From NCBI RefSeq assembly GCF_009600605.1, contig NZ_VWNA01000003.1, forward strand, positions 1 to 64,000: 64,000 nucleotides of DNA, read 5' to 3'. This document shows, piece after piece, positions 50,301 to 64,000 of the stretch. How positions within the stretch are numbered: the first letter of the stretch is position 1; each line of letters opens with the position of its first letter. This stretch comes from Segnochrobactrum spirostomi. GTDB lineage: Bacteria; Pseudomonadota; Alphaproteobacteria; Rhizobiales; Segnochrobactraceae. Made by a program: the position numbers and the translations under genes. The notes beneath the pieces are model-generated. The model was not told where the DNA came from and did not search any database. It worked only from the letters and a program-made list of their open reading frames with translations.

Positions 50301-50948
50301 TCAGAGGAACGTCTCCGGAATCGGCGACCACCGGCCGTGGTCGTCGGGGGCGAATTGCGGGATGTGGGCGAGGCTCACGAGCTTCGTCTGGTCCTCGCCG
50401 AGCACCACCTGCCAATCGCGGGCCTCGGTGAGGATGACGCCCGAGCCGACGACGTCGGCACCGGCCGCCCGCACGAGATCGAGCGCGCCCTTGAGGCTCG
50501 AGCCGGACGCGACGACGTCGTCGACCACCACGACGCGCTTGCCGGCGAGGAGCGGCACGGCGCGGCGGTCGAGCAGGAGACGCTGCTCGCCTTTCGACGT
50601 GATGGACGAAATCGTCTGAACCAGGGCATCGCCGAGGTGGATCTTCGGCGATTTCTGCAGGATCACATAGTGATCGAGCCCAAGCGCCCGCGTGACCTCG
50701 ATCGCCACCGGGATGCCGAGGGTCGCGGTGCCCACAACGATGTCGGGTTTCAGCGGTGCAAGCTTCTCGGCAAGCTTGCGCCCGACATGCTCACCGAAGC
50801 GGACGCCGAGATCGATCACCATCATCAGCGAGATGGCGAAATCGGGTTTGATCGCGACGATCGGCAGGTCCACCGGGAAGCCTGCGACGTCGACGTGCCA
50901 CGAGGCACCGGTGAAGATGTCGTGCGGTGCAGGGGCGGCAGTCGTCAT
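50301..50948 (-). CDS. Phosphoribosyltransferase family protein (purine-type)
   Basis: 215-residue type I phosphoribosyltransferase. The PRPP-binding motif is VVVVDDVVASGSSLKGAL, and PDIVVGTATLGIPVAIEVTR is the PP-loop region. It resembles adenine or xanthine phosphoribosyltransferases. ATG 50948 has AAGGAG 8 bases upstream. It follows an ECF importer on the same strand after 151 bases. If the importer carries a nucleobase, this enzyme would trap it as the nucleotide inside the cell; that link is inference. Specificity cannot be read from the sequence. Confidence 0.86.
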   Translation of the reverse strand: MTTAAPAPHDIFTGASWHVDVAGFPVDLPIVAIKPDFAISLMMVIDLGVRFGEHVGRKLAEKLAPLKPDIVVGTATLGIPVAIEVTRALGLDHYVILQKSPKIHLGDALVQTISSITSKGEQRLLLDRRAVPLLAGKRVVVVDDVVASGSSLKGALDLVRAAGADVVGSGVILTEARDWQVVLGEDQTKLVSLAHIPQFAPDDHGRWSPIPETFL

Positions 50949-51099
50949 CGAGAACTCTCCTTTGCGGTGCGATCAATCCGGCGGATCGACCTACAATGTC
51001 TGGTGCTTCATTCAGAGCCTCGAGCAAAATGTTCGTGCCCAAGGCCTCTCGTGCGTCCTGCTTCGGCGTCTCCACCGCCGGCGGGACGAAAGCGGCTCG

Positions 51100-51768
51100 C
51101 TACGAGCCCGGCCGGCGCATCCGTGGCTCGACCATCAAGCCGACCTCCCGCCACGTGGTCCGTTTGCGCCCCGTATCGAACCCGTAGATCGCCAAGGCGA
51201 TCGAGATCGCGTGCGCCATCCGCACGGCCTGCACGAGGAGCGGCACGCCCCGCGCCAGCGCGAAACGCAACTTGGTGACGAACCCGACGTCGTCGACCTC
51301 CATGCCCCGGGCGCGCTGCGCGTCGGCGATCCGCTCGAAATCGTCGCGCAGCATCGGGATGATGCCGAACGTCAAGGCGAGCACCAGCGTCGCGACAGGA
51401 GGGAGCCGCGCCGCACTTGCCGCCGCCAGGATGGAACCGGGCGAACTCGTTTCCATGACGAAGAAGAAGGCTGCCGTGGTGGTCACCAACCGAGCCGCCA
51501 TGGCAACCGCAACCGGTACCGCCGCAAAGAACGAATGTCCCTGCAGCACGAGGTTGACGAGCCAGCTCGCCACGACGAGGCAGACGAGCAAACCGGCGCC
51601 CTTGAGATATCCCGCCAGGTTCGGCACCCGGATGAGCGCCATGACGCCGAGGACGGCGACCGCCAGAGGGACGCCATAGCGCCAATCCGGGGCGATCCAG
51701 GCAAACACCATCACGAGTGTCGCCAAAGCGAGCTTCAGGAAGAAGTTGATTTCGCTGATCCGGGTCAT
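51100..51768 (-). CDS. ECF transporter transmembrane subunit (EcfT)
   Basis: 222-residue membrane scaffold subunit of an energy-coupling factor importer. Several N-terminal helices (FFLKLALATLVMVFAWIAP) are followed by the cytoplasmic coupling region with DDFERIADAQRARGMEVDD, matching the conserved Ala-Arg-Gly motif that contacts the ATPases. ATG 51768 overlaps the ATPase stop (TGATG). It lies between the fused ATPase gene and the phosphoribosyltransferase. Confidence 0.87.
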   Translation of the reverse strand: MTRISEINFFLKLALATLVMVFAWIAPDWRYGVPLAVAVLGVMALIRVPNLAGYLKGAGLLVCLVVASWLVNLVLQGHSFFAAVPVAVAMAARLVTTTAAFFFVMETSSPGSILAAASAARLPPVATLVLALTFGIIPMLRDDFERIADAQRARGMEVDDVGFVTKLRFALARGVPLLVQAVRMAHAISIALAIYGFDTGRKRTTWREVGLMVEPRMRRPGS

Positions 51769-53327
51769 CACGCCCCTTCCCGCTCGGCTGCGCCGAGGCC
51801 CGGCCCGCCATCCGCGTACGATCCTTCGACCGCCGGGGCCGGCCAGCCGAGCGCGCGGAAGGCCGGGCTCGACCACCCCGCCTCGACGGCCCCGTCGAAC
51901 GCGATCCGGCCCTCCGCGAGCACGAGGATGCGCGAGGCGACGTCGTCGACGAGATCGAGATCGTGGGAGATCAGCATGACGCCGCGGCCGGCGCGCGCCA
52001 TGGTTTCGAGGAACAGGTCGAGCATTCGCCGCCCTTCGAGATCGCGCGCGAGCAAGGGCTCGTCGAGGATCGCGACGTCGGCGCCCGCCGCGTCGGCGCA
52101 GGCGAGCCCAAGCAGCGCCTGCTGGCGCGCGGACAGCGCAAATGGGTTCGTCTCCGCCAGGGGGCCGAGACCATATTTCTCCAGCATCGCCAGCGCACGG
52201 GCGAGGATGTCCGGGTCGCGGCTCGCAGCGGTCGAGGCAGTCAGGGCGAACACGACCTCCTCCCGCGCGCTCATGTTGAAGAGGACGCGGCGCATGTTCT
52301 GCGGCAGATAGGCGACCTTGCGCGCCCGACGCGCCGCGGTCCAATCGCCGGCGGCCTGTCCGTCGATGGCGATCGTGCCTGCGGAAATCGGCGACAGCCC
52401 CAGGATCGACTGAAACAGGGTGGTTTTGCCTGCCCCGTTACGCCCGATCAGAGCGACGACCTCGCCGGCGCGGACCTCAAAGCCCACATCGTCGAGCACC
52501 GGGCGCCCATCGGCCCGCTTCAGCCGGGTGCGCAACCCGGAGACTGCGAGCAACGACCGACCGATTGTGGCCGCGAAGCGCTTGCGCAGACCACGACGTG
52601 GCGGGACGATACCAGCCTCCAGCCAACAGATATCGTCGGCCAGGGCGGCGCTGGTCGGCTCGGCGGGCGTGAGCCGCCCCGCCCGCAGCAGGGCGACCCG
52701 ATCGATCACGGCGCTGAGCGACACGGCATCTTGCTCGGCGACGAGCATGGCGCCGATCTCGCGACCGCGCCGCCCGAGCGCACCGGCGAGGCGGCTGCGG
52801 GCGGACGGATCGAGCCCGGTCGTGGGCTCGTCGAGCACGAGAAGCGAAGGATGGGGAGCGAGCGCAGCGGCAATCGCCACCATGCGCCGCTCGCCGCCCG
52901 AGAGCGTGAGCACCCGGCGGCCGGCCAATGGCCAGAGTTCCATCTCATCGAGAAGGCTGGTCAGCCGCGCGCGGATCTCCGCCTTCGCAACGCCGCGGTT
53001 CTCCAGCGGAAAGGCGATGAGATCCTCGACCTCAAGGTCCCAGAGCTGGTCTTCGACATTCTGGGCGACGATGCCGATCCTGGTGAACAGCGCATCCTTG
53101 CTCAAAGTCGCGATCGGCACGCCATCGAGCGACACCGTGCCGGCGAAATGGGGAACGGCGATCAGACGCGGGATGAGCCCGCACGCCGCCTGCATCAAGG
53201 TCGTCTTGCCGCTAGACGCGGCGCCGCACAGAAGCAGGCGCTCACCCGCCTCGACCTCGAAGTAAATGTCGGAGACCACCGGATTCGGGCCGCCGAATCC
53301 GATGGTCACGTCCTCTAGCCTCAGCAC
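51768..53327 (-). CDS. ECF transporter fused dual ATPase (EcfA-EcfA')
   Basis: 519-residue protein with two ABC ATPase domains in one chain. Domain 1: Walker A GAASSGKTT, signature LSGGERR, Walker B LLVLDEPTTGLD. Domain 2 (from about residue 265): Walker A GRNGAGKTT, Walker B VAILDEPLLARD and switch histidine LISHDLDLVDD, but the signature reads LSARQQA instead of LSGGQ. One composite site may therefore be weak or inactive. It pairs with EcfT below and the S component 15 bases upstream. Confidence 0.9.
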   Translation of the reverse strand: MLRLEDVTIGFGGPNPVVSDIYFEVEAGERLLLCGAASSGKTTLMQAACGLIPRLIAVPHFAGTVSLDGVPIATLSKDALFTRIGIVAQNVEDQLWDLEVEDLIAFPLENRGVAKAEIRARLTSLLDEMELWPLAGRRVLTLSGGERRMVAIAAALAPHPSLLVLDEPTTGLDPSARSRLAGALGRRGREIGAMLVAEQDAVSLSAVIDRVALLRAGRLTPAEPTSAALADDICWLEAGIVPPRRGLRKRFAATIGRSLLAVSGLRTRLKRADGRPVLDDVGFEVRAGEVVALIGRNGAGKTTLFQSILGLSPISAGTIAIDGQAAGDWTAARRARKVAYLPQNMRRVLFNMSAREEVVFALTASTAASRDPDILARALAMLEKYGLGPLAETNPFALSARQQALLGLACADAAGADVAILDEPLLARDLEGRRMLDLFLETMARAGRGVMLISHDLDLVDDVASRILVLAEGRIAFDGAVEAGWSSPAFRALGWPAPAVEGSYADGGPGLGAAEREGA

Positions 53328-53342
53328 GGGGTCCGCCGGTCC

Positions 53343-53915
53343 TCAGAAGCGTTCGAAGCCGGCAGGATGCGCGCTCTTCAAAATCTTCAGCGCGGGAATG
53401 ACGAGGAGCGGCGTGCCGACGATCATCGGAACGATATCCGACAGGCCGAGATAAAGCACCGCCCACCAATAGGGAAAGATGCCGAGGAAGGCGAGGCTCG
53501 CCGACACGCACGCCACCATCACCAGGCCAACGACGAGGCAGATCGCTGCAATCTTGATCAGCGCGGTCCGGTCGAGAGGGGATTTGGTGGGATTGACGAG
53601 CAGGCCCGGCACGAGCCCGGTCAGGCCGACCATGATGCCGTCCACGATGAGGGAGTGGGCCGGGATGAAGGTTCCGGCGAGCAGCGACCACACGATCGTG
53701 CCGAGATAGCCGCAGATGAAGCCGCTGCGCCAGCCGAGCAGAATGCCGATCAGCGGCGGCAGAAAGGCGAAGATGCGCCACTGGATGACGCCGGGGACGA
53801 GCTGGATCGGGTTCGCATAAGCCCACAGAACGCCCGTGGCGGCTCCGGCCACGATGGAGAGAACGATCGGGAAGAGCGAATTGCCTTCGCTGCGCGAAAG
53901 ACTGGCCGGCGGCAT
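53343..53915 (-). CDS. ECF transporter substrate-binding S component
   Basis: 190-residue membrane protein with about six helices, the size and topology of ECF S components. Segments IVLSIVAGAATGVLWAYANP, FLPPLIGILLGWRSGFICGY and GLVPGLLVNPTKSP are seen. It begins the ECF operon, 15 bases before the fused ATPase. I cannot assign it to a named S family by eye (not obviously biotin, thiamine or riboflavin type). The phosphoribosyltransferase at the operon end hints at a purine or pyrimidine ligand. Confidence 0.78.
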   Translation of the reverse strand: MPPASLSRSEGNSLFPIVLSIVAGAATGVLWAYANPIQLVPGVIQWRIFAFLPPLIGILLGWRSGFICGYLGTIVWSLLAGTFIPAHSLIVDGIMVGLTGLVPGLLVNPTKSPLDRTALIKIAAICLVVGLVMVACVSASLAFLGIFPYWWAVLYLGLSDIVPMIVGTPLLVIPALKILKSAHPAGFERF

Positions 53916-54006: not shown

Positions 54007-54210
54007 CCGCGGCCCAAGTGGAACGCGACCATTTCTCGCGAATAAGTAGCGACGCGCTATTTCCGCGAGCGTATCCCGCCCTGGCGACAGCGAAATTACC
54101 GCCGTCGGTCTTCCGCGCCGAACCGCTGACCTCGCGACGTCGTGGTCGCGTCCCACGCAGCGGGCGCGGTGCATTTGCTACCTGCGCGCGATTGACTCGT
54201 TCAATAAATC

Positions 54211-54229
54211 TACATACGGTCTGCATGTA
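54211..54229. promoter_or_regulatory. TACAT-N9-ATGTA dyad upstream of the regulator-racemase fusion
   Basis: 5-9-5 dyad ending 36 bases before the GTG start at 54266, inside an AT-rich patch with TTGACT at 54192-54197. The 19-bp dimension suits a MerR-type operator lying in a promoter spacer, so autoregulation is plausible. Confidence 0.45.
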
Positions 54230-54265
54230 CAAAAAAACGATATCCGTTCTAGAGGTTCTTCCCCC

Positions 54266-56167
54266 GTGGAGCAGGACGAGCGCCGCAAGCCCTACTCGAT
54301 CGGCCACGTGACCAAGGTCACGGGGGTGAACGCCTCGACGCTTCGCTCGTGGGAGCAGCAGGGACTCATCGACCCGTCCAAGGCGGAAAGCGGACGACGG
54401 ACCTTCGGCGACGACGACATCCGCAAGATCCAGGAGATAGACCGCCTGCGCCGGATGTACGGCTACAGCCTCGCCGGCATCAAACGGGCCCTCGCGGAAC
54501 AGAACACTACGGCCGCCGCCGAAGGCGCGGACGCCGCGCTTCCCAATGCGGACGAGCCGCGGATGGAGCAGATCGGCGCTCGGGTCCGGTCGCTGCGGCT
54601 CGCCGCCGGACTCAGCCTGCGTCAGGTCGCCGAAAAGACGGGCCTCGCCGCCTCGCATCTCAGCATGTTCGAGCGGGGCGTCGCCTTTCCCTCCCCGTCT
54701 CGCCTGAACGCGATCGCGCAGCTCTTCAATCAGACCCTCGCCGATCTCCTCGGCGGCACCAGCACCTCCGGTCAGGCCATCATCCGCAAGGGCCGCGGCC
54801 GCATCGTCGGATCGTTCGGGCCGGGCGTCACCGTCGAACAGCTCACGGTGAGCGAGGAGCTGATGGACTGCGAGGTATGGACGCTCGCGCAGGGCGCCGA
54901 GAGCGAAGGCTTCTATGCCCACGAAGGCCAGGAGCTCATCTACGTCCTCGAAGGGGCGTTCGAGCTCGCCCTCGACGGTGGTGACGTCGAGGTGCTGGGG
55001 GCCGGCGACAGCGCCTACTTCAACAGCACGCGGCAGCATCGCTGGCGCAACGCGGCCGCCGGGCCGACGACCCTGTTGTGGATCAACACCGACGTAAAGC
55101 GCCTCGCCTCCCTCGAAGGGGCCGGATTTGCACGCGCCTTGAAGCTCGGCGGCCCCGTCGGCAGCGGTCTCGGCGAGGCCGCCTTCGCCCTCGAACTGCC
55201 CGAGGGCAGCCGCACCTATCGCGTGGTCGACCTCCACACCGCCGGACACCCGACCCGGGTGATGCTCGAACCGCTCGACGGCCTCGACGGGGAGAGCGTG
55301 GCGGAGAAGCGCGAGAGCTTCCGCGCGAAGCACGATCACCTGCGCACACTGCTGCTCCATGAACCGCGCGGCCACGCCGCCACCTTCGGCCTCATCCCCG
55401 TGACGTCCGCGCGGGCCGATTTCGGCGCGATCTTCGTATCATCCTATAAATATCTCGATATGTGCGCCCATGGCACGATCGGCTACGCGCGCGCCCTCGA
55501 TGCGCTCGGCCGGCTCGGCGGACGCTCGTCGTTCAGCCTCGAGGTGCCGGCCGGCATCGTCGACGTTCACCTCGGCCGCCATGGCTCGGCGCGCAATGTC
55601 AGTATCGACAACGTCGCCTCCTATGTCGCGATCGCGGAGCTGCCGCTCGACGAGATCCGACCCGGATATAAGGCTGCGATCGCCTATGGCGGCGGCTGGT
55701 ACGCGAACGTCGATGCCGGCGCGCTCGGGATCCCGATCCAGGACGACGACGTGGCCGAACTCATGGAGCTGGGGGCCCGCATCAAGGCGCAGATCAACGC
55801 GGCTTTGAAGGCGCGCGGCGGACCGGTCGCGGAGATCGACAGCACGCTGTTCTACGAGGAGCGCGACGGGCGCAGCCGCCAGCTCGTCGTGCTTGAACGC
55901 AACAAATACGACCGTTCGCCGTGCGGCACCGGCATGAGCGCCCGCATGGCCGAACTCGCCCTGAAAGGACGCCTCAAGCCGGGCCAGCTCCACGTCGTGG
56001 AGAACGTCCTCGGCGTGCCGTTCCTCGGCGAGGTCCTGAAGGAGACGACGGTCGCCGGACAGCCGGCGATCCTGCCGCAAATCACCGGCAGCGCGAGCCT
56101 GAGCGCGTTCTCGACCTTGATCGTCGAAGCCGACGATCCGCTGCCGAACGGCTTTCTCTGCCGCTGA
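54266..56167 (+). CDS. MerR-XRE-cupin-proline racemase fusion protein
   Basis: 633-residue four-module protein. Residues 9-76: MerR-type winged helix (SIGHVTKVTGVNASTLRSWE). Residues 102-163: XRE/Cro helix-turn-helix (VRSLRLAAGLSLRQVAEKTG). Residues 200-275: cupin barrel (HEGQELIYVLEGAFEL, GDSAYF). Residues 318-625: proline racemase superfamily domain with DLHTAGHPTRV, first catalytic cysteine Cys400 in DMCAHGTIG (Gly replaced by Ala in the usual MCGH) and second Cys553 in DRSPCGTG. Both cysteines kept implies epimerase-type chemistry rather than dehydratase. The GTG start has AGAGG 10 bases upstream. It is read in the same direction as an amino-acid importer 74 bases downstream. Probably a substrate-sensing regulator of this cluster that may still be enzymatically active. 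Confidence 0.88.
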   Translation: MEQDERRKPYSIGHVTKVTGVNASTLRSWEQQGLIDPSKAESGRRTFGDDDIRKIQEIDRLRRMYGYSLAGIKRALAEQNTTAAAEGADAALPNADEPRMEQIGARVRSLRLAAGLSLRQVAEKTGLAASHLSMFERGVAFPSPSRLNAIAQLFNQTLADLLGGTSTSGQAIIRKGRGRIVGSFGPGVTVEQLTVSEELMDCEVWTLAQGAESEGFYAHEGQELIYVLEGAFELALDGGDVEVLGAGDSAYFNSTRQHRWRNAAAGPTTLLWINTDVKRLASLEGAGFARALKLGGPVGSGLGEAAFALELPEGSRTYRVVDLHTAGHPTRVMLEPLDGLDGESVAEKRESFRAKHDHLRTLLLHEPRGHAATFGLIPVTSARADFGAIFVSSYKYLDMCAHGTIGYARALDALGRLGGRSSFSLEVPAGIVDVHLGRHGSARNVSIDNVASYVAIAELPLDEIRPGYKAAIAYGGGWYANVDAGALGIPIQDDDVAELMELGARIKAQINAALKARGGPVAEIDSTLFYEERDGRSRQLVVLERNKYDRSPCGTGMSARMAELALKGRLKPGQLHVVENVLGVPFLGEVLKETTVAGQPAILPQITGSASLSAFSTLIVEADDPLPNGFLCR

Positions 56168-56241: not shown

Positions 56242-57087
56242 ATGAGTGCATTCTCGAAGGCGCTGCGGACGCTGTCCGCGATGGCGATCGCCCTGGCGAT
56301 CGGGGTCGCCGCTTCGTTCACCCCGGCCCATGCCGATCCGAACGCCACGCTCGACCGCATCAAGTCGAGCGGCGTTCTGAAAGTTCCGGTGATGGTCGGC
56401 GAGGAGCCGGGCTACGTGAAGGATCCCGCCACCGGCAACTGGAGCGGGTTCTACATGGATTGGGCGAACGACATCGCCGGCTTTCTCGGCGTGAAGGTTC
56501 AGCCGGTCGAGACGACCTGGGGCAACCTCGCCGCCGACTTCCAGGCCAACAAGATCGATATCGCCTTCGGCCTCAACCCGAATCCGAAGCGTGGCCTCGT
56601 CGTCGACTATCTGAGCGTCCCGCTCTTCACCGACGCCTGGGCGATCGTGACCAAGAAGGGCTACGAGAAGAAGACCTGGGCCGAACTCAACGATCCGTCG
56701 GTCCGCATCGTCGTCCAGAAGGGCGGCACCATGCAGGTCGTCGCCGAGGCGATGACGCCGAAGGCCCAGATCATCCCGGTCGAGGACCGTCCGCTCGGCG
56801 TGATGGAACTCCAGGCGAACCGCGCCGACGTCATGATCCTGGCGATCTTCGACGCCGTCCAGGTCAGCAAGCAGATCGACGGCCAGATCATCCTGCCGAA
56901 GCCGATGCTCATCAATCCGGCCACCATCGGCGTGAAGCGCGAGGACGGCAACGAGGGCTACGAGAACTGGCTGACCAACTGGATCAACTACCAGCGCTCG
57001 CTCGGCCTCGCCCAGGGCAAGCTGCACCAGACCTTCGAGAAGGCCGGCATCGACCTCTCGATGCTGCCGCCCGAGTTCAGCTTCTGA
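56242..57087 (+). CDS. Amino-acid-type ABC transporter substrate-binding protein (family 3)
   Basis: 281-residue periplasmic binding protein. Signal peptide ends TPAHADPN; the mature start TLDRIKSSGVLKVPVMVGEE is typical of family 3 amino-acid binders. Ligand-site segments include GFYMDWANDIAGFLGVKV, TTWGNLAADFQANKIDIAF and VVQKGGTMQ. AGAGGGG precedes ATG 56242. With the permease and ATPase downstream it should import an amino acid or imino acid used by the cluster, possibly proline- or hydroxyproline-like (inference). Confidence 0.9.
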   Translation: MSAFSKALRTLSAMAIALAIGVAASFTPAHADPNATLDRIKSSGVLKVPVMVGEEPGYVKDPATGNWSGFYMDWANDIAGFLGVKVQPVETTWGNLAADFQANKIDIAFGLNPNPKRGLVVDYLSVPLFTDAWAIVTKKGYEKKTWAELNDPSVRIVVQKGGTMQVVAEAMTPKAQIIPVEDRPLGVMELQANRADVMILAIFDAVQVSKQIDGQIILPKPMLINPATIGVKREDGNEGYENWLTNWINYQRSLGLAQGKLHQTFEKAGIDLSMLPPEFSF

Positions 57088-57135: not shown

Positions 57136-57227
57136 CCTCTCCGCCCGCACTGCCGAGCCATCCGGCTGACGCTGTGCGGCCCGCGCGGCGCCCGCCCCGC
57201 CGCCCTCGATCCCTCTCGGAACGCGCC

Positions 57228-57878
57228 ATGTTCGACTGGAGCATCCTCGTCGCCAATCAGAACCTGCTTTGGGCGGGTCTCCTGACGACGCTGAAATACA
57301 CAATCGTGACGTCGATCGTCGGTCTTGCGATCGGGCTCGTCGTCGCCCTCGCCCAGTTGAGCCGTCTGCGCGTGCTGCGCTACGCCGGCCGGATCTTCGT
57401 CGAATTCTTCCGCAACATCCCGCTGCTGGTGTGGCTCCTGTGGAGCTACTACGCGCTGCCGATCTTCGCCGGCATCGACATTTCCAAGCAGGCCGCAGGC
57501 ACCACGGCGCTCAGCCTCTACGTCGCGTCCTATTATGCCGAGATCCTGCGGGCCGGCATCCTTTCGATCGACCGCGGCCAGAGCGACGCGGCGCGTGCGC
57601 TCGGAATGTCCGGCGCCCAGGCGATGCGGCGCATCATTCTGCCTCAGGCCCTGCGCCGGATGATCCCGCCGCTCTCCGGTCAGACCATCATCCAGATGAA
57701 GAACACCACCCTTCTCTCGGTGATCACCATTCCCGATCTCCTCTATCAGGCGAGCTACATCTCGTCGTTCACCTATCGCCCGATGGAGGTCTACACCGCG
57801 ATCGGCTGCATCTTCCTCTTGATCCTCATTCCGCTGAACTACGTGGCCCGCCGTCTCGAAGCGAAGGAGATGCACTGA
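57228..57878 (+). CDS. Amino-acid ABC transporter permease (HisM/GlnP family)
   Basis: 216-residue permease of the polar amino-acid family with five or so helices. Helix 1 region GLLTTLKYTIVTSIVGLAIG; conserved EFFRNIPLLVWLL; EAA-type loop QSDAARALGMSGAQAMRRII. It is the only permease gene here, so a homodimeric channel is likely. ATG 57228 starts just before the first conserved block; upstream frame is a GC-rich shadow. Stop overlaps the ATPase start (TGATG). Confidence 0.91.
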   Translation: MFDWSILVANQNLLWAGLLTTLKYTIVTSIVGLAIGLVVALAQLSRLRVLRYAGRIFVEFFRNIPLLVWLLWSYYALPIFAGIDISKQAAGTTALSLYVASYYAEILRAGILSIDRGQSDAARALGMSGAQAMRRIILPQALRRMIPPLSGQTIIQMKNTTLLSVITIPDLLYQASYISSFTYRPMEVYTAIGCIFLLILIPLNYVARRLEAKEMH

Positions 57879-58693
57879 TGCGCACGGATCCTTCCGCCGG
57901 CGAACCGCTTCTCGAAGTCAAAGGCCTGCGCAAGCGCTTCGGCAGCCTCGAAATCCTGAAAGGCATCGATCTGACCGTCCGCCGCGGCGAGGTCGTCGCG
58001 CTGGTCGGCTCGTCGGGCTCGGGCAAGACGACGCTGCTGCGCTGCCTGAACCTCCTCGAGGTCCCCTCCTCGGGCAAGATCGCCCTCCAGGGCAAGACGA
58101 TGTTCCATGCCGAGGACGGGCGCGATCTCGCCCGCCTGCGTGCCGCCGAGATCAACCGGATGCGCGCCCGGGTCGGCATGGTCTTCCAGCATTTCAATCT
58201 CTTCCCGCACATGTCGGTGCTCGCCAACACCATGGAGGGGCCGCGCACCGTGCTGAAGGAGGCGCCGGCGACCAATCGCGCGCGCGCCCTCGATCTCCTC
58301 GGCAAGGTCGGCATGGCGGACTTCGCCGATCGCATGACGGACCGCCTGTCGGGTGGCCAGAAACAACGTGTCTCGATCGCCCGCGCCCTCAACATGCAGC
58401 CGGTGCTGATGCTGTTCGACGAGCCGACCTCCGCGCTCGATCCGGAACTCGTCGGCGAGGTGCTCAAGACCATGATCGCGCTCGCCCGGGAGGGCATGAC
58501 GATGGTGGTCGTCACCCATGAGCTGGGCTTCGCCCTGGAGGTGGCCGACCGCGTCGTCTTCCTCGAGTCCGGCACCGTGGCGGCCGACGGCCCGCCCGCC
58601 GACGTGCTGATCCGCGCGCCCAACGAACGCATCCGCGCCTTCGTCAACCGCTTCCACGAAACCGCAGAGCTGATGAAGCCCCTGATGGGCTGA
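57878..58693 (+). CDS. Amino-acid ABC transporter ATP-binding protein
   Basis: 271-residue ATPase of the GlnQ/HisP type. Walker A GSSGSGKTT, Q-loop MVFQHFNLFPHMSVL, signature LSGGQKQR, Walker B LMLFDEPTSALDPE, switch VTHELGFALEVADRV. Overlaps the permease stop by one base. Last transporter gene; the DapA-family gene begins 24 bases later. Confidence 0.93.
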   Translation: MRTDPSAGEPLLEVKGLRKRFGSLEILKGIDLTVRRGEVVALVGSSGSGKTTLLRCLNLLEVPSSGKIALQGKTMFHAEDGRDLARLRAAEINRMRARVGMVFQHFNLFPHMSVLANTMEGPRTVLKEAPATNRARALDLLGKVGMADFADRMTDRLSGGQKQRVSIARALNMQPVLMLFDEPTSALDPELVGEVLKTMIALAREGMTMVVVTHELGFALEVADRVVFLESGTVAADGPPADVLIRAPNERIRAFVNRFHETAELMKPLMG

Positions 58694-58717: not shown

Positions 58718-59626
58718 ATGGCTACACCCCGCTGGCAGGGCATTCACAGTGTCCTCGTCACTCCCTTCGACGCGTCCGGAGCGATCGATTTCGGCGCCTA
58801 CGAAGCCCTGATCGAACGCAACATCGCGAACGGCGCCGACGGCCTCATCGTCTGCGGCTCGACCGGCGAGTTCTACACGATGACGGTCGAGGAGCGCGTC
58901 GCGCTGTTCGAGGCGACGGTGAAGGCCGCGGCCGGTCGCGTGCCCGTGCTCGCCGGCGTCTCCGATCTGCGCACCGACATCGTGACCGCCCTCTGCCGCA
59001 AAGCGGAAGACGCCGGCTGCGACGGCATTCTGGCGCTTCCTCCCATCTATGCCGTTCCCGACGAGCGGGAGGTCGACCACTTCTACGGTCAGGTCGCGGG
59101 TGCGTCGGGTCTGCCCGTCATGCTCTACAACAGCCCGCGACGGATCGGCCTGAACCTGACGCCGGACCAGGTGGAGCGGCTCGCCGCGCTGCCGACCGTC
59201 GCCTCGATCAAGGATTCCTCCGGCGACATCGTCCAGGTCACGGAACTCTGCCGCCGCGTCGGCGGACGCCTCTCGGTCTTCGTCGGCTACGAGACGATGA
59301 TCCGCGCCGCCCTCCCCGTCGGCGTCGTGGGCGTGGTGGCGATGGCGCACCAGCTCTCGGGACGTCTCGTTCGGTCCTATTTCGACGCCTGCGCGGCAGC
59401 CGACTACGCCACAGCCGACCGCCTGGAGCCGGCGCTCTTCGCGATCTACCGCTGCTTCCGCACCGGCTCCTACTATGCCGGCATCAAGGCGACCATGAAC
59501 GCGCTCGGCCAGCCCGTCGGGTCGCCGCGCGAGCCGCTGCTTCCTTTCACCGACGCCCAACAAGCTAAAGTCGCCGCCATCCTCGCCGACGCGAAGGTGG
59601 CCGACCTCATCGCCTCTCTCCGCTAA
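58718..59626 (+). CDS. DapA-family lyase/deaminase
   Basis: 302-residue class I aldolase-fold enzyme (dihydrodipicolinate synthase/N-acetylneuraminate lyase family). Schiff-base Lys165 in ASIKDSSGD, Tyr137 in VMLYNSPRR and the GSTGEFYTMTVEE loop are present. In hydroxyproline degradation a DapA relative deaminates pyrroline-4-hydroxy-2-carboxylate to 2-oxoglutarate semialdehyde; beside racemase-family genes and an aldehyde dehydrogenase that is the best guess here. True diaminopimelate synthesis is unlikely in this context. GAGAG precedes ATG 58718. Confidence 0.87.
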   Translation: MATPRWQGIHSVLVTPFDASGAIDFGAYEALIERNIANGADGLIVCGSTGEFYTMTVEERVALFEATVKAAAGRVPVLAGVSDLRTDIVTALCRKAEDAGCDGILALPPIYAVPDEREVDHFYGQVAGASGLPVMLYNSPRRIGLNLTPDQVERLAALPTVASIKDSSGDIVQVTELCRRVGGRLSVFVGYETMIRAALPVGVVGVVAMAHQLSGRLVRSYFDACAAADYATADRLEPALFAIYRCFRTGSYYAGIKATMNALGQPVGSPREPLLPFTDAQQAKVAAILADAKVADLIASLR

Positions 59627-59634
59627 GGCTTGTC

Positions 59635-60642
59635 ATGCGCTCCACCCGTATCATCCAGGGCATCGATTCCCACACCGCCGGCTGCCCGCTGCGCCTCATC
59701 ACCTCGGGCTTCGGCCCGATCCGCGGCAAGACCATGGTCGAGAAGCGCGCGGATCTAATGACCCGCGACGAGCTGCGTCAGCTCGTGCTGTTCGAACCGC
59801 GCGGCTCGTTCAACATGCCGGCGGCGGTGCTCACCGAGGCGTGCTCGCCCGACGCCGACATCGGCATGATCATTCTCGAGCCCGACACCTATCCGCCGAT
59901 GTGCGGCCACTGCGCGATGGCGGTGGCGACCATCGCCGTCGAGGCCGGCTACGTGAAGGCCGTCGAGGGCGAGACGCTGGTCCGGCTCGACACCCCGGCC
60001 GGTGTGGTGCCTGCGCGCGTTACGGTGGAGAACGGACGCGCCGTCTCGGTGACGCTCGAGATGCCGTCGTCGTTCCTCTATCGCCGCGACGTCGTGCTCG
60101 ACACCCCGTCGTTCGGCAAGGTGCGCGGCGACATCGCCTTCGGCGGCGATTTCTACCTGCTCGTCGAAGCGGCCGATCTCGGGCTCTCCCTCGTTCCGGA
60201 GCAGGCTTGGCAGCTCGTGAGCGCGGCGGCCGAGTTGCGGACCGCGCTGGCGAGCGTCTCCGTCCAGCATCCGACGCTGCCGCACGTCAACGAGATCTAC
60301 CAGATCGAGCTCATCGGTCCGGGGGACGGCGTGCGCACCGATGCGCGCAACGTCGTGGTCTGCCCGCCGACCGTGATCGACCGCTCGCCCTGCGGCACCG
60401 GCACCGCCTCACGGATGGCGCTCCTGCACGGCCGGGGCGACATGAAGGCCGGCGACAGCCTGCGCCACGGCGGCATTCTCGACACGGTGTTCACCGGGCG
60501 CATCACCGGCGAGACGCAGGTCGGCGACCTGCCGGCCATCACCTGCACGGTGACCGGCAGCGCCTACCTCACCGGCACCTTCAACTTCTTCCTCGATCCC
60601 AACGATCCGTTCCAGGCGGGCTTCCGTCTGACCGGCGTTTGA
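59635..60642 (+). CDS. Proline racemase-superfamily enzyme (hydroxyproline 2-epimerase-like)
   Basis: 335-residue standard-length member. Catalytic pair Cys90 (PPMCGHCAMA) and Cys253 (DRSPCGTGTAS) are both present, as in proline racemases and 4-hydroxyproline 2-epimerases; 3-hydroxyproline dehydratases carry Thr in place of the first Cys. N terminus GIDSHTAGCPLRLITSGFGP. It follows the DapA-family gene by 8 bases. Substrate may be trans-4-hydroxy-L-proline or an analogue; not decided by sequence. Confidence 0.9.
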   Translation: MRSTRIIQGIDSHTAGCPLRLITSGFGPIRGKTMVEKRADLMTRDELRQLVLFEPRGSFNMPAAVLTEACSPDADIGMIILEPDTYPPMCGHCAMAVATIAVEAGYVKAVEGETLVRLDTPAGVVPARVTVENGRAVSVTLEMPSSFLYRRDVVLDTPSFGKVRGDIAFGGDFYLLVEAADLGLSLVPEQAWQLVSAAAELRTALASVSVQHPTLPHVNEIYQIELIGPGDGVRTDARNVVVCPPTVIDRSPCGTGTASRMALLHGRGDMKAGDSLRHGGILDTVFTGRITGETQVGDLPAITCTVTGSAYLTGTFNFFLDPNDPFQAGFRLTGV

Positions 60643-60673
60643 CCCGGCCGCCGGCATCGCCAGGAGGCGCATG

Positions 60674-62161
60674 ATGACAGACCCCGTGATCAGCTTCGAT
60701 CCGAATACGCTCTCGCCACGAGCGGACCATTTCATCAAGGGCCGACGGCGCGAGGGCGGAGAGGGCGCGGTGCCGGTGCACCGGCCCTCCGACGGGGTCG
60801 AAATCGGCCGCCTTCACGATGCCGGCGAGACCATAGTCGACGAAGCCGTGGGCGCGGCACGCGATGCGTTCCGCACCTCCGGCTGGGCGAGCGCGCACCC
60901 GCTCGATCGCGCGGCGGTGCTGCACCGCTGGGCGGCCCTCGTCGAGGCCCGGACCGAGGAGATCGCCCGCCTCGAATCCGCGACGTCGACGCGACCCATC
61001 GCCGACACGCTCGGCCGCGATGTCGGCCGGGCTGCGGGGGCGATCCGTTTCTTCGCCGAATCCGTCGACAAGATCGAAGGGTCGGTGATCGCCACCGCGG
61101 CGGCGGCGAACTGCATGGTGGTGCCGGAGCCCTACGGCGTCGTCGCCTCCATCACCGCCTGGAACTTCCCGCTCATCAACGCGGTGTGGAAGTCGGCGCC
61201 CGCGCTCGCCGCCGGCAACGCGGTGGTGCTGAAGCCGTCCGAGCTGACGCCCTACACCGCGATCCGGATCGCCGAGCTCGCCGTCGAAGCCGGCCTGCCC
61301 GCTGGCCTCTTCAACGTCGTCCAAGGTCTCGGCGCGACGACCGGATCGGCCCTGGTGCGCCACCCGGACGTCCGCAAGATCAGCTTCACCGGCTCCACGG
61401 GAACTGGCGCTCGCATCATGGCCGACGCTGCGGCCACGGGCACCAAGCCGCTGACGCTCGAGCTCGGCGGCAAGTCCCCCCAGCTCGTCTTGAAGGATGT
61501 GCGCGATCTCTCGCCCGTCGCCCTCAACGTCGCCAACGGCTTCCTCGCCAACGCGGGACAGGTCTGCACCGCGGGGTCGCGGCTGATCGTTCACCGCTCG
61601 ATGGCGGACGAACTCGTCTCCCGCGTCCAGGCCCTCGCCGCGGCGCGAACCGCCGGGCCGACGTGGCAGGTGGAAACGACGCTCTCGCCGCTCGTCAGCG
61701 AGCGTCAGGCGGAACGGATCGAGCGGATGATCGCGGCGACCGTCGCCGACGGCGCCAGCATCGTGAGCGGCGGCACGCGCGTGTCGGGCCGCAATGCCGG
61801 GGCCTATTTCGAGCCCACCATCCTCGCGAACGTCGCCGAGACCTCCGTCGGCTTCCGCGAGGAGTTCTTCGGCCCCGTCCTCTCCGTCTACACCTACGAG
61901 GACGAGGATGAGGCGATCGCGATGGCCAATCATCCTCTCTACGCCCTCGCCGCCAGCCTCTACACCGACGATGCCCGCAAGGCGCTTGCAATCCCGAAGC
62001 GGCTCGAGGCCGGTACGGTCTGGGTCAACGCCCACGGCCGCCAACCCGGCTACGCCCACCCGCAGGGCGGCTTCAACCATTCCGGCTTCGGCCGCGAGAT
62101 GGGCCGCGCCGGCCTCGAAGGCTTCCTGCGCCACAAGACCGTCTGGCTCTCCCACGGATAG
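60674..62161 (+). CDS. NAD(P)-dependent aldehyde dehydrogenase
   Basis: 495-residue aldehyde dehydrogenase. Motifs: SITAWNFPLINAVWKSAPAL, ISFTGSTGTGARIM, LELGGKSPQLVL with the general-base Glu, and nucleophile Cys298 in NAGQVCTAGSRL. In context it could oxidise 2-oxoglutarate semialdehyde (the product of hydroxyproline-type degradation) or an aldehyde made by the GMC enzyme. Two adjacent ATGs occur at 60671 and 60674; the second is preferred because AGGAGG is then 6 bases away. GMC gene follows after 3 bases. Confidence 0.91.
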   Translation: MTDPVISFDPNTLSPRADHFIKGRRREGGEGAVPVHRPSDGVEIGRLHDAGETIVDEAVGAARDAFRTSGWASAHPLDRAAVLHRWAALVEARTEEIARLESATSTRPIADTLGRDVGRAAGAIRFFAESVDKIEGSVIATAAAANCMVVPEPYGVVASITAWNFPLINAVWKSAPALAAGNAVVLKPSELTPYTAIRIAELAVEAGLPAGLFNVVQGLGATTGSALVRHPDVRKISFTGSTGTGARIMADAAATGTKPLTLELGGKSPQLVLKDVRDLSPVALNVANGFLANAGQVCTAGSRLIVHRSMADELVSRVQALAAARTAGPTWQVETTLSPLVSERQAERIERMIAATVADGASIVSGGTRVSGRNAGAYFEPTILANVAETSVGFREEFFGPVLSVYTYEDEDEAIAMANHPLYALAASLYTDDARKALAIPKRLEAGTVWVNAHGRQPGYAHPQGGFNHSGFGREMGRAGLEGFLRHKTVWLSHG

Positions 62162-62164
62162 ATC

Positions 62165-63865
62165 ATGTCTGCTGACCAATTCGATTATGTCATCGTCGGC
62201 GGCGGCGCGGCCGGCGCCGTGCTGGCGAGCCGGCTCTCGGAGAACTCCCGCTTTTCGGTCGCGCTCGTCGAGGCGGGACCGGATACGCCGCCCGGCCGCG
62301 AGCCGGCCGATATTCTCGATTCCTATCCGATCGTCGCCTATTTCAACCGCGCCTATCACTGGCAGAACATCCAGGTTCACCTGAACGATCCGAAAGGACG
62401 TTCGGCCGCCCCTCGCCGTTACGAGCAGGCGAAAGTGATGGGCGGAGGCACCTCGATCAACGGCATGTTCGCCTTCCGCGGCCTGCCGTGGGATTTCGAG
62501 GATTGGAAGGCGAACGGGGCCGACGGATGGGGCTGGGACGACGTCCTTCCCTTCTACCGCAAGCTCGAGCGCGATCTCGATTACGGCGCCGAGCCGGTGC
62601 ACGGCGACAGCGGTCCGCTGCCGATCCGGCGGATTCCGCGCGCTTCGTGGCCGCCGTTCACCGAAGCGGTGGCGCGCGCCCTCGAGGGGCAGGGCTTTAG
62701 CGACATCCGCGACCACAACGGGGCGACCGGCGATGGCTTCTTCCCGATGTCGATCAACAATGTCGAGGGCGAGCGCGTCTCGACGGCCCGGGCCTACCTC
62801 ACCCGCGAGGTACGGGCGCGGAAGAACCTGAGCATTCTGCCCGAGACCGAGGTCCGCGCGATCCGCTTCGACGGTCTGAAGGCGACCGGCGTCGTTGTCC
62901 GCACCGCCGCGGGCGAACGGACGATCGGCGCAGGCGAGGTGATCGTGAGCGCCGGCGCGATGCAGACGCCGGGCATACTGATGCGGGCCGGTATAGGCCC
63001 CGCGGACCACCTCAAGCAGTTCGGCATCGCCGTGAAGGCGGACCGGCCCGGCGTCGGCGCGAACCTCCAGGACCATCCGATGGTCGCGCTCGCCGCCTAT
63101 CTGCAACCCGGCAAGCGCCTGCCGCCCACCCTGCGGCGCCATATCCAGATGGGGTTCCGCTACTCGTCCGGCGTCGAAGGCTGCACCCCGGGCGACATGT
63201 TCATCCTGCCCTCGAGCCGCGCCGCCTGGCATCCGCTGGGCCGGATGCTCGGCTCCGTCCTCGTCTGCGTGAACCGGCCCTACTCGACCGGCGAGGTCCG
63301 TCTCACCGGTGCCAGCCCGGACGACGCTCCCTTCATCAACTTCAGGCAGCTCTCCGATGAGCGCGACCTCATCCGCCTGGAAGAGGGCATGCATCGGCTC
63401 CAGACGATCATCGACGCGCCCTCCTTGCGCGGCGTGATCGGCGAGGTCTTTCCAGCCACGTTCTCCGAGCGCGTGCGCAAGCTCGGGGCGGTGAACCGAA
63501 AGAACTACTACCTGACCATGCTGGCGGCGGGCGTCATGAGCCTGGGGCCCCTCGCCCGCCGCACCATGATCGACAAGGTGATCAGCCCCGACGCCGACGT
63601 GGCGCGGCTGATGCGCGAACCCGCGGCTCTGCGGAGCTGGGTCGTCGAGAACACCTGCGGCAGTTGGCACGCGAGCGGCACCTGCCGGCTCGGTCGCGCC
63701 GACCAGACGCACGCCGTCGTCGATCGAAACGCCAAGGTGATCGGCGTCGAACGGCTTCGGGTCGTCGATGCGTCGATCATGCCGAGCGTGATCAGCGGCA
63801 ACACCATGCTCACCACGATCATGGCCGGTGAAAAGATCGCCGACGCCATCAAGTCCGGCTCGTGA
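62165..63865 (+). CDS. GMC-family FAD oxidoreductase (choline dehydrogenase-like)
   Basis: 566-residue glucose-methanol-choline oxidoreductase. FAD-binding DYVIVGGGAAGAVLASRLSE, the second GMC signature GAMQTPGILMRAGIGP, active-site histidine in SWHASGTCRLG and asparagine in SGNTMLTTIMAGEKIAD. Such enzymes oxidise alcohols to aldehydes, so it may work with the adjoining aldehyde dehydrogenase. It occupies the place where hydroxyproline clusters usually carry an FAD amine oxidase, which it is not. A third racemase-family gene begins 13 bases later. Confidence 0.91.
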   Translation: MSADQFDYVIVGGGAAGAVLASRLSENSRFSVALVEAGPDTPPGREPADILDSYPIVAYFNRAYHWQNIQVHLNDPKGRSAAPRRYEQAKVMGGGTSINGMFAFRGLPWDFEDWKANGADGWGWDDVLPFYRKLERDLDYGAEPVHGDSGPLPIRRIPRASWPPFTEAVARALEGQGFSDIRDHNGATGDGFFPMSINNVEGERVSTARAYLTREVRARKNLSILPETEVRAIRFDGLKATGVVVRTAAGERTIGAGEVIVSAGAMQTPGILMRAGIGPADHLKQFGIAVKADRPGVGANLQDHPMVALAAYLQPGKRLPPTLRRHIQMGFRYSSGVEGCTPGDMFILPSSRAAWHPLGRMLGSVLVCVNRPYSTGEVRLTGASPDDAPFINFRQLSDERDLIRLEEGMHRLQTIIDAPSLRGVIGEVFPATFSERVRKLGAVNRKNYYLTMLAAGVMSLGPLARRTMIDKVISPDADVARLMREPAALRSWVVENTCGSWHASGTCRLGRADQTHAVVDRNAKVIGVERLRVVDASIMPSVISGNTMLTTIMAGEKIADAIKSGS

Positions 63866-63878
63866 GACGGAGGCGGCG

Positions 63879-64000
63879 ATGCGCACACAACGCTTCATCG
63901 CGACCGTCGACAGCCACACGGCGGGCCATCCGACCCGCGTCGTCACCGGCGGCCTCGCGCCCCTCGTCGGCGAGAGCGTGGCGGCGCGGAGAGACGATTT
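63879..64000 (+). CDS. Proline racemase-superfamily protein, truncated by window end
   Basis: First 40 codons only. VDSHTAGHPTRVVTGGLAP and GESVAARRDDF match the N terminus of proline racemase-family enzymes and are closer to the racemase domain of the fusion at 54266 (DLHTAGHPTRV, GESVAEKRESF) than to the gene at 59635. GGAGG lies 6 bases before ATG 63879. The catalytic cysteines lie outside the window. Confidence 0.85.
   Translation, partial: MRTQRFIATVDSHTAGHPTRVVTGGLAPLVGESVAARRDD

Follow-up and report, generated by a model that had tools for sequence, protein, structure and literature searches.

MocR/GabR-type regulators join a GntR-type winged helix-turn-helix (wHTH) to a PLP fold-type-I aminotransferase domain that serves as the sensor, and autoregulation and direct-repeat operators are common among them (PMC5320631). 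XRE-cupin regulators, such as PuuR, PauR, ErfA and PsdR, consist of an XRE-type helix-turn-helix (HTH) domain followed by a cupin, and inhibit neighbouring metabolic genes, a local form of control (PMC7901475). Hydroxyproline catabolism, which involves a racemase-family epimerase, a DHDPS-family deaminase and an aldehyde dehydrogenase (PMC4113996), is repressed by the GntR protein HypR, with 4-hydroxy-L-proline as the inducer (PMC5343134). Enzymes of the proline racemase superfamily (ProR, 4HypE, t3HypD) carry MC(G/A)H and DRSP motifs on a full-length domain. Characterised members racemise with two bases, of which the first Cys can be substituted by Ser; trans-3-hydroxyproline dehydratases are one-base enzymes in which Thr replaces the second Cys (PMC4113996). 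In a related histidine racemase, Cys-to-Ser changes cut turnover greatly (PMC11602996).

The window, a stretch of 64,000 nucleotides of Segnochrobactrum spirostomi (contig NZ_VWNA01000003.1, positions 1 to 64,000), contains a single unbroken open reading frame with a GTG start that encodes elements of these systems in one polypeptide (Table 1). The Pfam matches show an N-terminal MerR HTH as in the MerR family, an XRE HTH followed by a cupin as in XRE-cupin regulators, and a full-length Pro_racemase domain with solved relatives among the proline racemases (6j7c, 7pb3, 6r76). The frame and the Pfam matches agree with the first-pass annotation, which had described a four-part protein of 633 residues with two HTH domains, a cupin and a racemase domain containing Cys400 and Cys553. 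The protein falls short of the NCBIfam equivalog cut-offs for proline racemase and 4-hydroxyproline epimerase, and it has no Pfam match to the GntR wHTH or the PLP aminotransferase-like domain of MocR/GabR. A structure prediction from the window sequences alone reached a pLDDT of 40 and was left out of the evidence.

Like MocR/GabR, the fusion couples DNA-binding domains to a whole metabolic-enzyme fold, and by analogy it would work like these regulators. It is, however, not a member of their family: its parts are MerR, XRE, cupin and a cofactor-free racemase fold, and no homology is claimed. Compared with XRE-cupin regulators, it adds the N-terminal MerR and the C-terminal racemase domain, and it differs from ProR, 4HypE and t3HypD in being fused to a regulator. 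HypR resembles it in role, as the regulator of a racemase-family catabolic operon, but belongs to an unrelated regulator family. A search of the open-access PMC literature found no described counterpart of a racemase-fused MerR/cupin or HTH regulator; the first-pass annotation had likewise known of no four-part version. A racemase fold acting as the sensor of a transcription factor appears to be undescribed in the literature searched.

Table 1. Features of the fusion gene, its promoter and the downstream operon.
Feature	Position	Strand	Evidence or remark
Conserved promoter block	54192..54223	+	-35-like TTGACT 54192-54197, 17-bp spacer, -10-like TACGGT 54215-54220; nine upstream regions aligned
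Putative operator repeat 1, TTCAATAAATCTACATACGGTCTG	54200..54223	+	upstream alignment; near-unique in genome
Putative operator repeat 2, TACAAAAAAACGATATCCGTTCTA	54228..54251	+	direct orientation, offset 28; leave-one-out matrix
MerR-XRE-cupin-racemase fusion gene	54266..56167	+	633 aa, first in operon; eight full-length homologues
MerR-type HTH domain (aa 10-78)	54293..54499	+	Pfam MerR_1 PF13411, 9.3e-19
XRE-type HTH domain (aa 102-161)	54569..54748	+	Pfam HTH_31 PF13560 4e-12 / HTH_3 PF01381 4e-11
Cupin domain (aa 204-273)	54875..55084	+	Pfam Cupin_2 PF07883, 7.7e-17
Cupin-racemase linker (aa 278-315)	55097..55210	+	invariant L294 G295 G299 G301 G303 E304 L311 in fusion alignment
Proline-racemase-superfamily domain (aa 320-630)	55223..56155	+	Pfam Pro_racemase PF05544, 1.6e-74, profile 1-324 of 325; solved relatives
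First catalytic Cys, C400 (MCAH)	55463..55465	+	invariant, nine fusions
Ala471, aligned with near-invariant Asp of stand-alone enzymes	55676..55678	+	replaced in all nine fusions
Second catalytic Cys, C553 (DRSPCGTG)	55922..55924	+	kept in window copy and G087; Gly in other seven
Amino-acid ABC transporter substrate-binding protein (SBP_bac_3)	56242..57087	+	Pfam; synteny
Amino-acid ABC transporter permease	57219..57878	+	synteny; start approximate
Amino-acid ABC transporter ATPase	57878..58693	+	synteny
DapA/DHDPS-family enzyme	58718..59626	+	profile matches
Racemase 1, stand-alone, both Cys	59635..60642	+	79-97% identical among nine operons
Aldehyde dehydrogenase 1	60671..62161	+	synteny
GMC oxidoreductase (choline-dehydrogenase-like)	62165..63865	+	
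Racemase 2 (start), both Cys	63879..64000	+	whole gene contig C3 63879-64877, beyond window; 49% identical to fusion's domain
Aldehyde dehydrogenase 2	64935-66377 (outside window)		after racemase 2

A search covering 3 genomes of the window's family, together with overlapping samples of 397 genomes from its order, 385 from its class and 398 from its phylum, revealed eight further full-length fusions (G087, G059, G002, G078, G340, G115, G081 and G436). In alignment A1 the G087 protein is 71% identical to the window fusion and the other seven are 43–49% identical. The nine genomes carry seven family codes, and G436 belongs to a different order of the same class as the window genome. That two separate genes were wrongly joined during assembly or annotation, an artefact which the first-pass annotation had considered, is practically ruled out, as the same four parts recur in the eight homologues from other genomes, at 43–71% identity. 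The plasmid collection yields no full fusion and gives partial matches in 62 records; on the named plasmids, the best stand-alone relatives come mostly from Hyphomicrobiales. GTDB contigs, scanned with a single fusion sequence, yielded an XRE-cupin protein only and no further full fusion, and no relatives were found in viral contigs. Ten stand-alone racemase matches lie in long open frames that, by inspection only, show no recognisable fused domain: the upstream frame looks non-coding in nine, and L076 has no extension.

In all nine genomes the operon begins with the fusion, after which come, in order, genes for the substrate-binding protein, the permease, the ATPase, the DapA-like enzyme, racemase 1, an aldehyde dehydrogenase, the GMC oxidoreductase, racemase 2 and another aldehyde dehydrogenase. 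The interpretation of the protein as a conserved regulator-enzyme fusion at the head of an amino-acid operon is supported. Order, strand and spacing indicate that the genes would share one transcript. Racemase 2 is missing from the G087 operon only, and in that genome the closest homologue of the window's racemase 2 is the fusion itself. One dehydrogenase of the operon is of the alpha-ketoglutarate-semialdehyde kind, with a score below the curated cut-off. Together with the DapA-like enzyme, this semialdehyde-type dehydrogenase recalls hydroxyproline catabolism; a D-amino-acid oxidase would, however, be expected where the operon has a GMC oxidoreductase.

The window fusion is closer to that of G087, which has another family code, than to that of G002 from its own family (71% against 49% identity), and racemase 1 likewise groups with G087 rather than G002. 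Hence, the operon has probably either been transferred horizontally or exists as two ancient versions. On the minus strand next to the operon (50301-53915) lie genes for a phosphoribosyltransferase (50301-50948), a double ABC ATPase (51768-53327), a small membrane protein (53343-53915) and, within 51100-52344, a CbiQ-type protein; as a group they resemble an ECF-type importer, whose substrate may be a nucleobase. On the rhizobial plasmids L071, L072 and L073, a related stand-alone racemase lies within SBP-racemase-permease-ATPase-DapA clusters, and a semialdehyde dehydrogenase and an aminotransferase come next in two of the three.

Phylogenetic trees were calculated for both halves of the protein. 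The racemase tree, built from 41 domains, places those of the nine fusions in one clade (100/99) that groups with stand-alone racemases from rhizobial plasmids and from G001, G246 and G731 (95/74, not starred); racemases 1 and 2 form separate clades. The MerR-XRE-cupin halves are also a single clade (100/100) when compared with 11 racemase-less proteins, and the inner branching order of the two trees matches. Because both halves are monophyletic with matching branching, the simplest reading of the trees is one fusion event between a MerR-XRE-cupin regulator and an operonic racemase. In G001 and G246, a GntR-FCD gene is immediately followed by the related stand-alone racemase and then by the same transporter genes; a regulator-racemase gene pair thus fills the place of the fusion in these relatives.

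Racemase-less MerR-XRE-cupin proteins from the window's taxonomic order and from S. meliloti pSmeMABNR56a share the three N-terminal domains with the fusion (36–42% identity over approximately residues 9-277) but stop at the cupin, lie among other neighbours and, at the three loci scanned (L068, L069, L070), lack the promoter element described below. Several genomes of the order encode such proteins (L032-L039, L045, L049 and L070, 7995-8816), with neighbours that vary where inspected, and no paper describing them as a group was found in the literature searched.

The nine aligned regions upstream of the fusion genes share TTGAC, followed by TTCAAWAWATC and TAYNNTC, with -35-like and -10-like hexamers separated by 17 bp. 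Allowing up to 3 mismatches, the promoter block is the sole match within the window; a generic sigma-70 promoter scan did not call it. A second copy of the repeat lies 28–30 bp downstream; in 9/9 cases it comes first among the remaining positions of the locus with a matrix built from the other eight first copies, a ranking that does not amount to nine independent tests as the loci are related. The motif is absent from all six other loci scanned, namely the GntR-type clusters L060 and L061, L067, and the aforementioned L068, L069 and L070. With up to 1 mismatch, a single additional, weaker match occurs in the window's genome, and all matches in the other fusion genomes fall at the fusion promoter except two in G115; the site of G059 itself is too divergent for the pattern. 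The near confinement of the motif to the fusion promoter points to one local target.

The tandem direct repeat (54192-54251) is likely the operator; some of the conserved promoter bases could reflect contacts with RNA polymerase instead. The first-pass annotation had placed the operator at a dyad (54211-54229). This proposal is rejected, since the upstream regions of the other fusions do not share the dyad but do share the direct repeat that spans this stretch. The arrangement also differs from the motifs described for XRE-cupin regulators, which are palindromes. Classical MerR activators use an operator dyad within an over-long promoter spacer of 19–20 bp; no such dyad in a long spacer is present at the fusion promoter, which has a 17-bp spacer and a direct repeat.

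The racemase domains of the nine fusions retain C400, H402 and D549 as well as the RSP and EPRG motifs. The second catalytic Cys is kept in the window copy and G087 and is replaced by Gly in the other seven, which form one clade (100/99) and have Val for the adjacent Gly. All fusions have lost two residues that are near-invariant in 32 stand-alone enzymes, the Asp aligned with Ala471 and the Gly aligned with Pro336 of the window protein. The domain lacking the second Cys is under purifying selection, with dN/dS values (Nei-Gojobori, two pairs only) of 0.031/0.518 for G115/G081 and 0.096/0.514 for G002/G078, corresponding to ratios of 0.06 and 0.19. Given the need for two bases in characterised members, the seven Gly553 proteins should not racemise. 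Both Cys are present in all racemase 1 (n = 9) and racemase 2 (n = 8) proteins, so that racemisation in the operons of these seven members need not come from the fusion. Two-base racemisation therefore cannot be the general reason for keeping the fusion, and the loss of a catalytic residue in 7/9 proteins suggests an enzyme turned into a sensor. That the single-Cys domain is another enzyme, e.g. a one-base dehydratase, is very improbable: trans-3-hydroxyproline dehydratases do work with one base, but they have Thr for the second Cys (PMC4113996), not Gly followed by Val, and the two columns are near-invariant C and G in the 32 stand-alone enzymes.

The 'apparently active' racemase of the first-pass annotation may apply to the window copy and G087, which keep both Cys; it would not extend to the seven Gly553 proteins, and the replaced Asp and the MCAH motif weigh against it in the window copy itself. 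The change from MCGH to MCAH, read as a hint of altered catalysis, is indeed present but private to the window copy, since the other eight fusions read CGH. A bifunctional trigger enzyme, in which the proteins of the window and G087 epimerise and regulate, control follows flux and the Cys-less relatives lost the enzyme half later, is possible but rather unlikely. In its favour, both Cys are present in the two members placed outside the Cys-less clade, and the nearest outside relatives are ordinary stand-alone two-Cys racemases. Among 34 columns near-invariant in the 32 stand-alone enzymes, the window copy keeps 31 and G087 keeps 32; likewise, of the residues that do not vary among 14 related enzymes, 94% are retained, compared with 69–81% in the Cys-less fusions. 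The G087 operon, moreover, has no racemase 2, with no closer homologue of it in the genome than the fusion. However, the proposal is based on two sequences, it has to accommodate the Asp and Gly lost in all nine fusions and the window's MCAH, and racemase 2 is already present in the window operon.

Sensing may instead fall to the cupin alone, as it does in ordinary XRE-cupin regulators, with the racemase domain as a passenger or a dimerisation scaffold. The existence of MerR-XRE-cupin proteins that lack the racemase fits this alternative, as does the better conservation of the cupin half (median identity 0.63, against 0.47 for the racemase half). We consider it unlikely, because the Cys-less domain is under purifying selection and its invariant C400, H402, D549, RSP and EPRG (n = 9) would be needless in a scaffold.

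On balance, the fusion is probably a local autoregulator that senses the amino acid of the operon through its racemase-derived domain. The MerR and XRE domains would bind the tandem direct repeat over the protein's own promoter. Most likely, the regulator would act as a repressor, since the repeats cover the spacer, the -10 element and the start region, and the promoter has an ordinary 17-bp spacing; MerR-family factors are often activators, which counts against this reading. The C-terminal domain, derived from an operonic enzyme of the proline racemase family, would bind the amino acid that is imported and degraded by the operon. Closure of the two-lobed racemase fold on the ligand would then release the DNA and turn on the transporter and enzyme genes. 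In most members, this domain would be a pseudo-racemase sensor that has lost the second base while keeping the His, the Asp and one Cys; some turnover may persist in the two-Cys window and G087 proteins. Sensing of the cluster substrate by the racemase domain, an idea already put forward in the first-pass annotation, would fit these data well.

Two features are new here: the replacement of the second Cys by Gly in one seven-member clade of fusions under purifying selection, and a conserved tandem-repeat promoter at every fusion gene that occurs in none of the six other scanned loci. We tentatively propose, at close to even chances, a transcription-factor family with a proline-racemase-fold sensor in two stages, comprising two-base proteins that are maybe enzyme-regulators, one of them without a paralogue, and base-less pure sensors. 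Enzyme folds are known as sensors of transcription factors, e.g. the PLP aminotransferases in MocR. Since intact and base-less versions occur alongside the paralogous enzymes within a single operon, the conversion of a catalyst into a sensor becomes traceable and testable, and the racemase fold suggests biosensors for proline-like amino acids.
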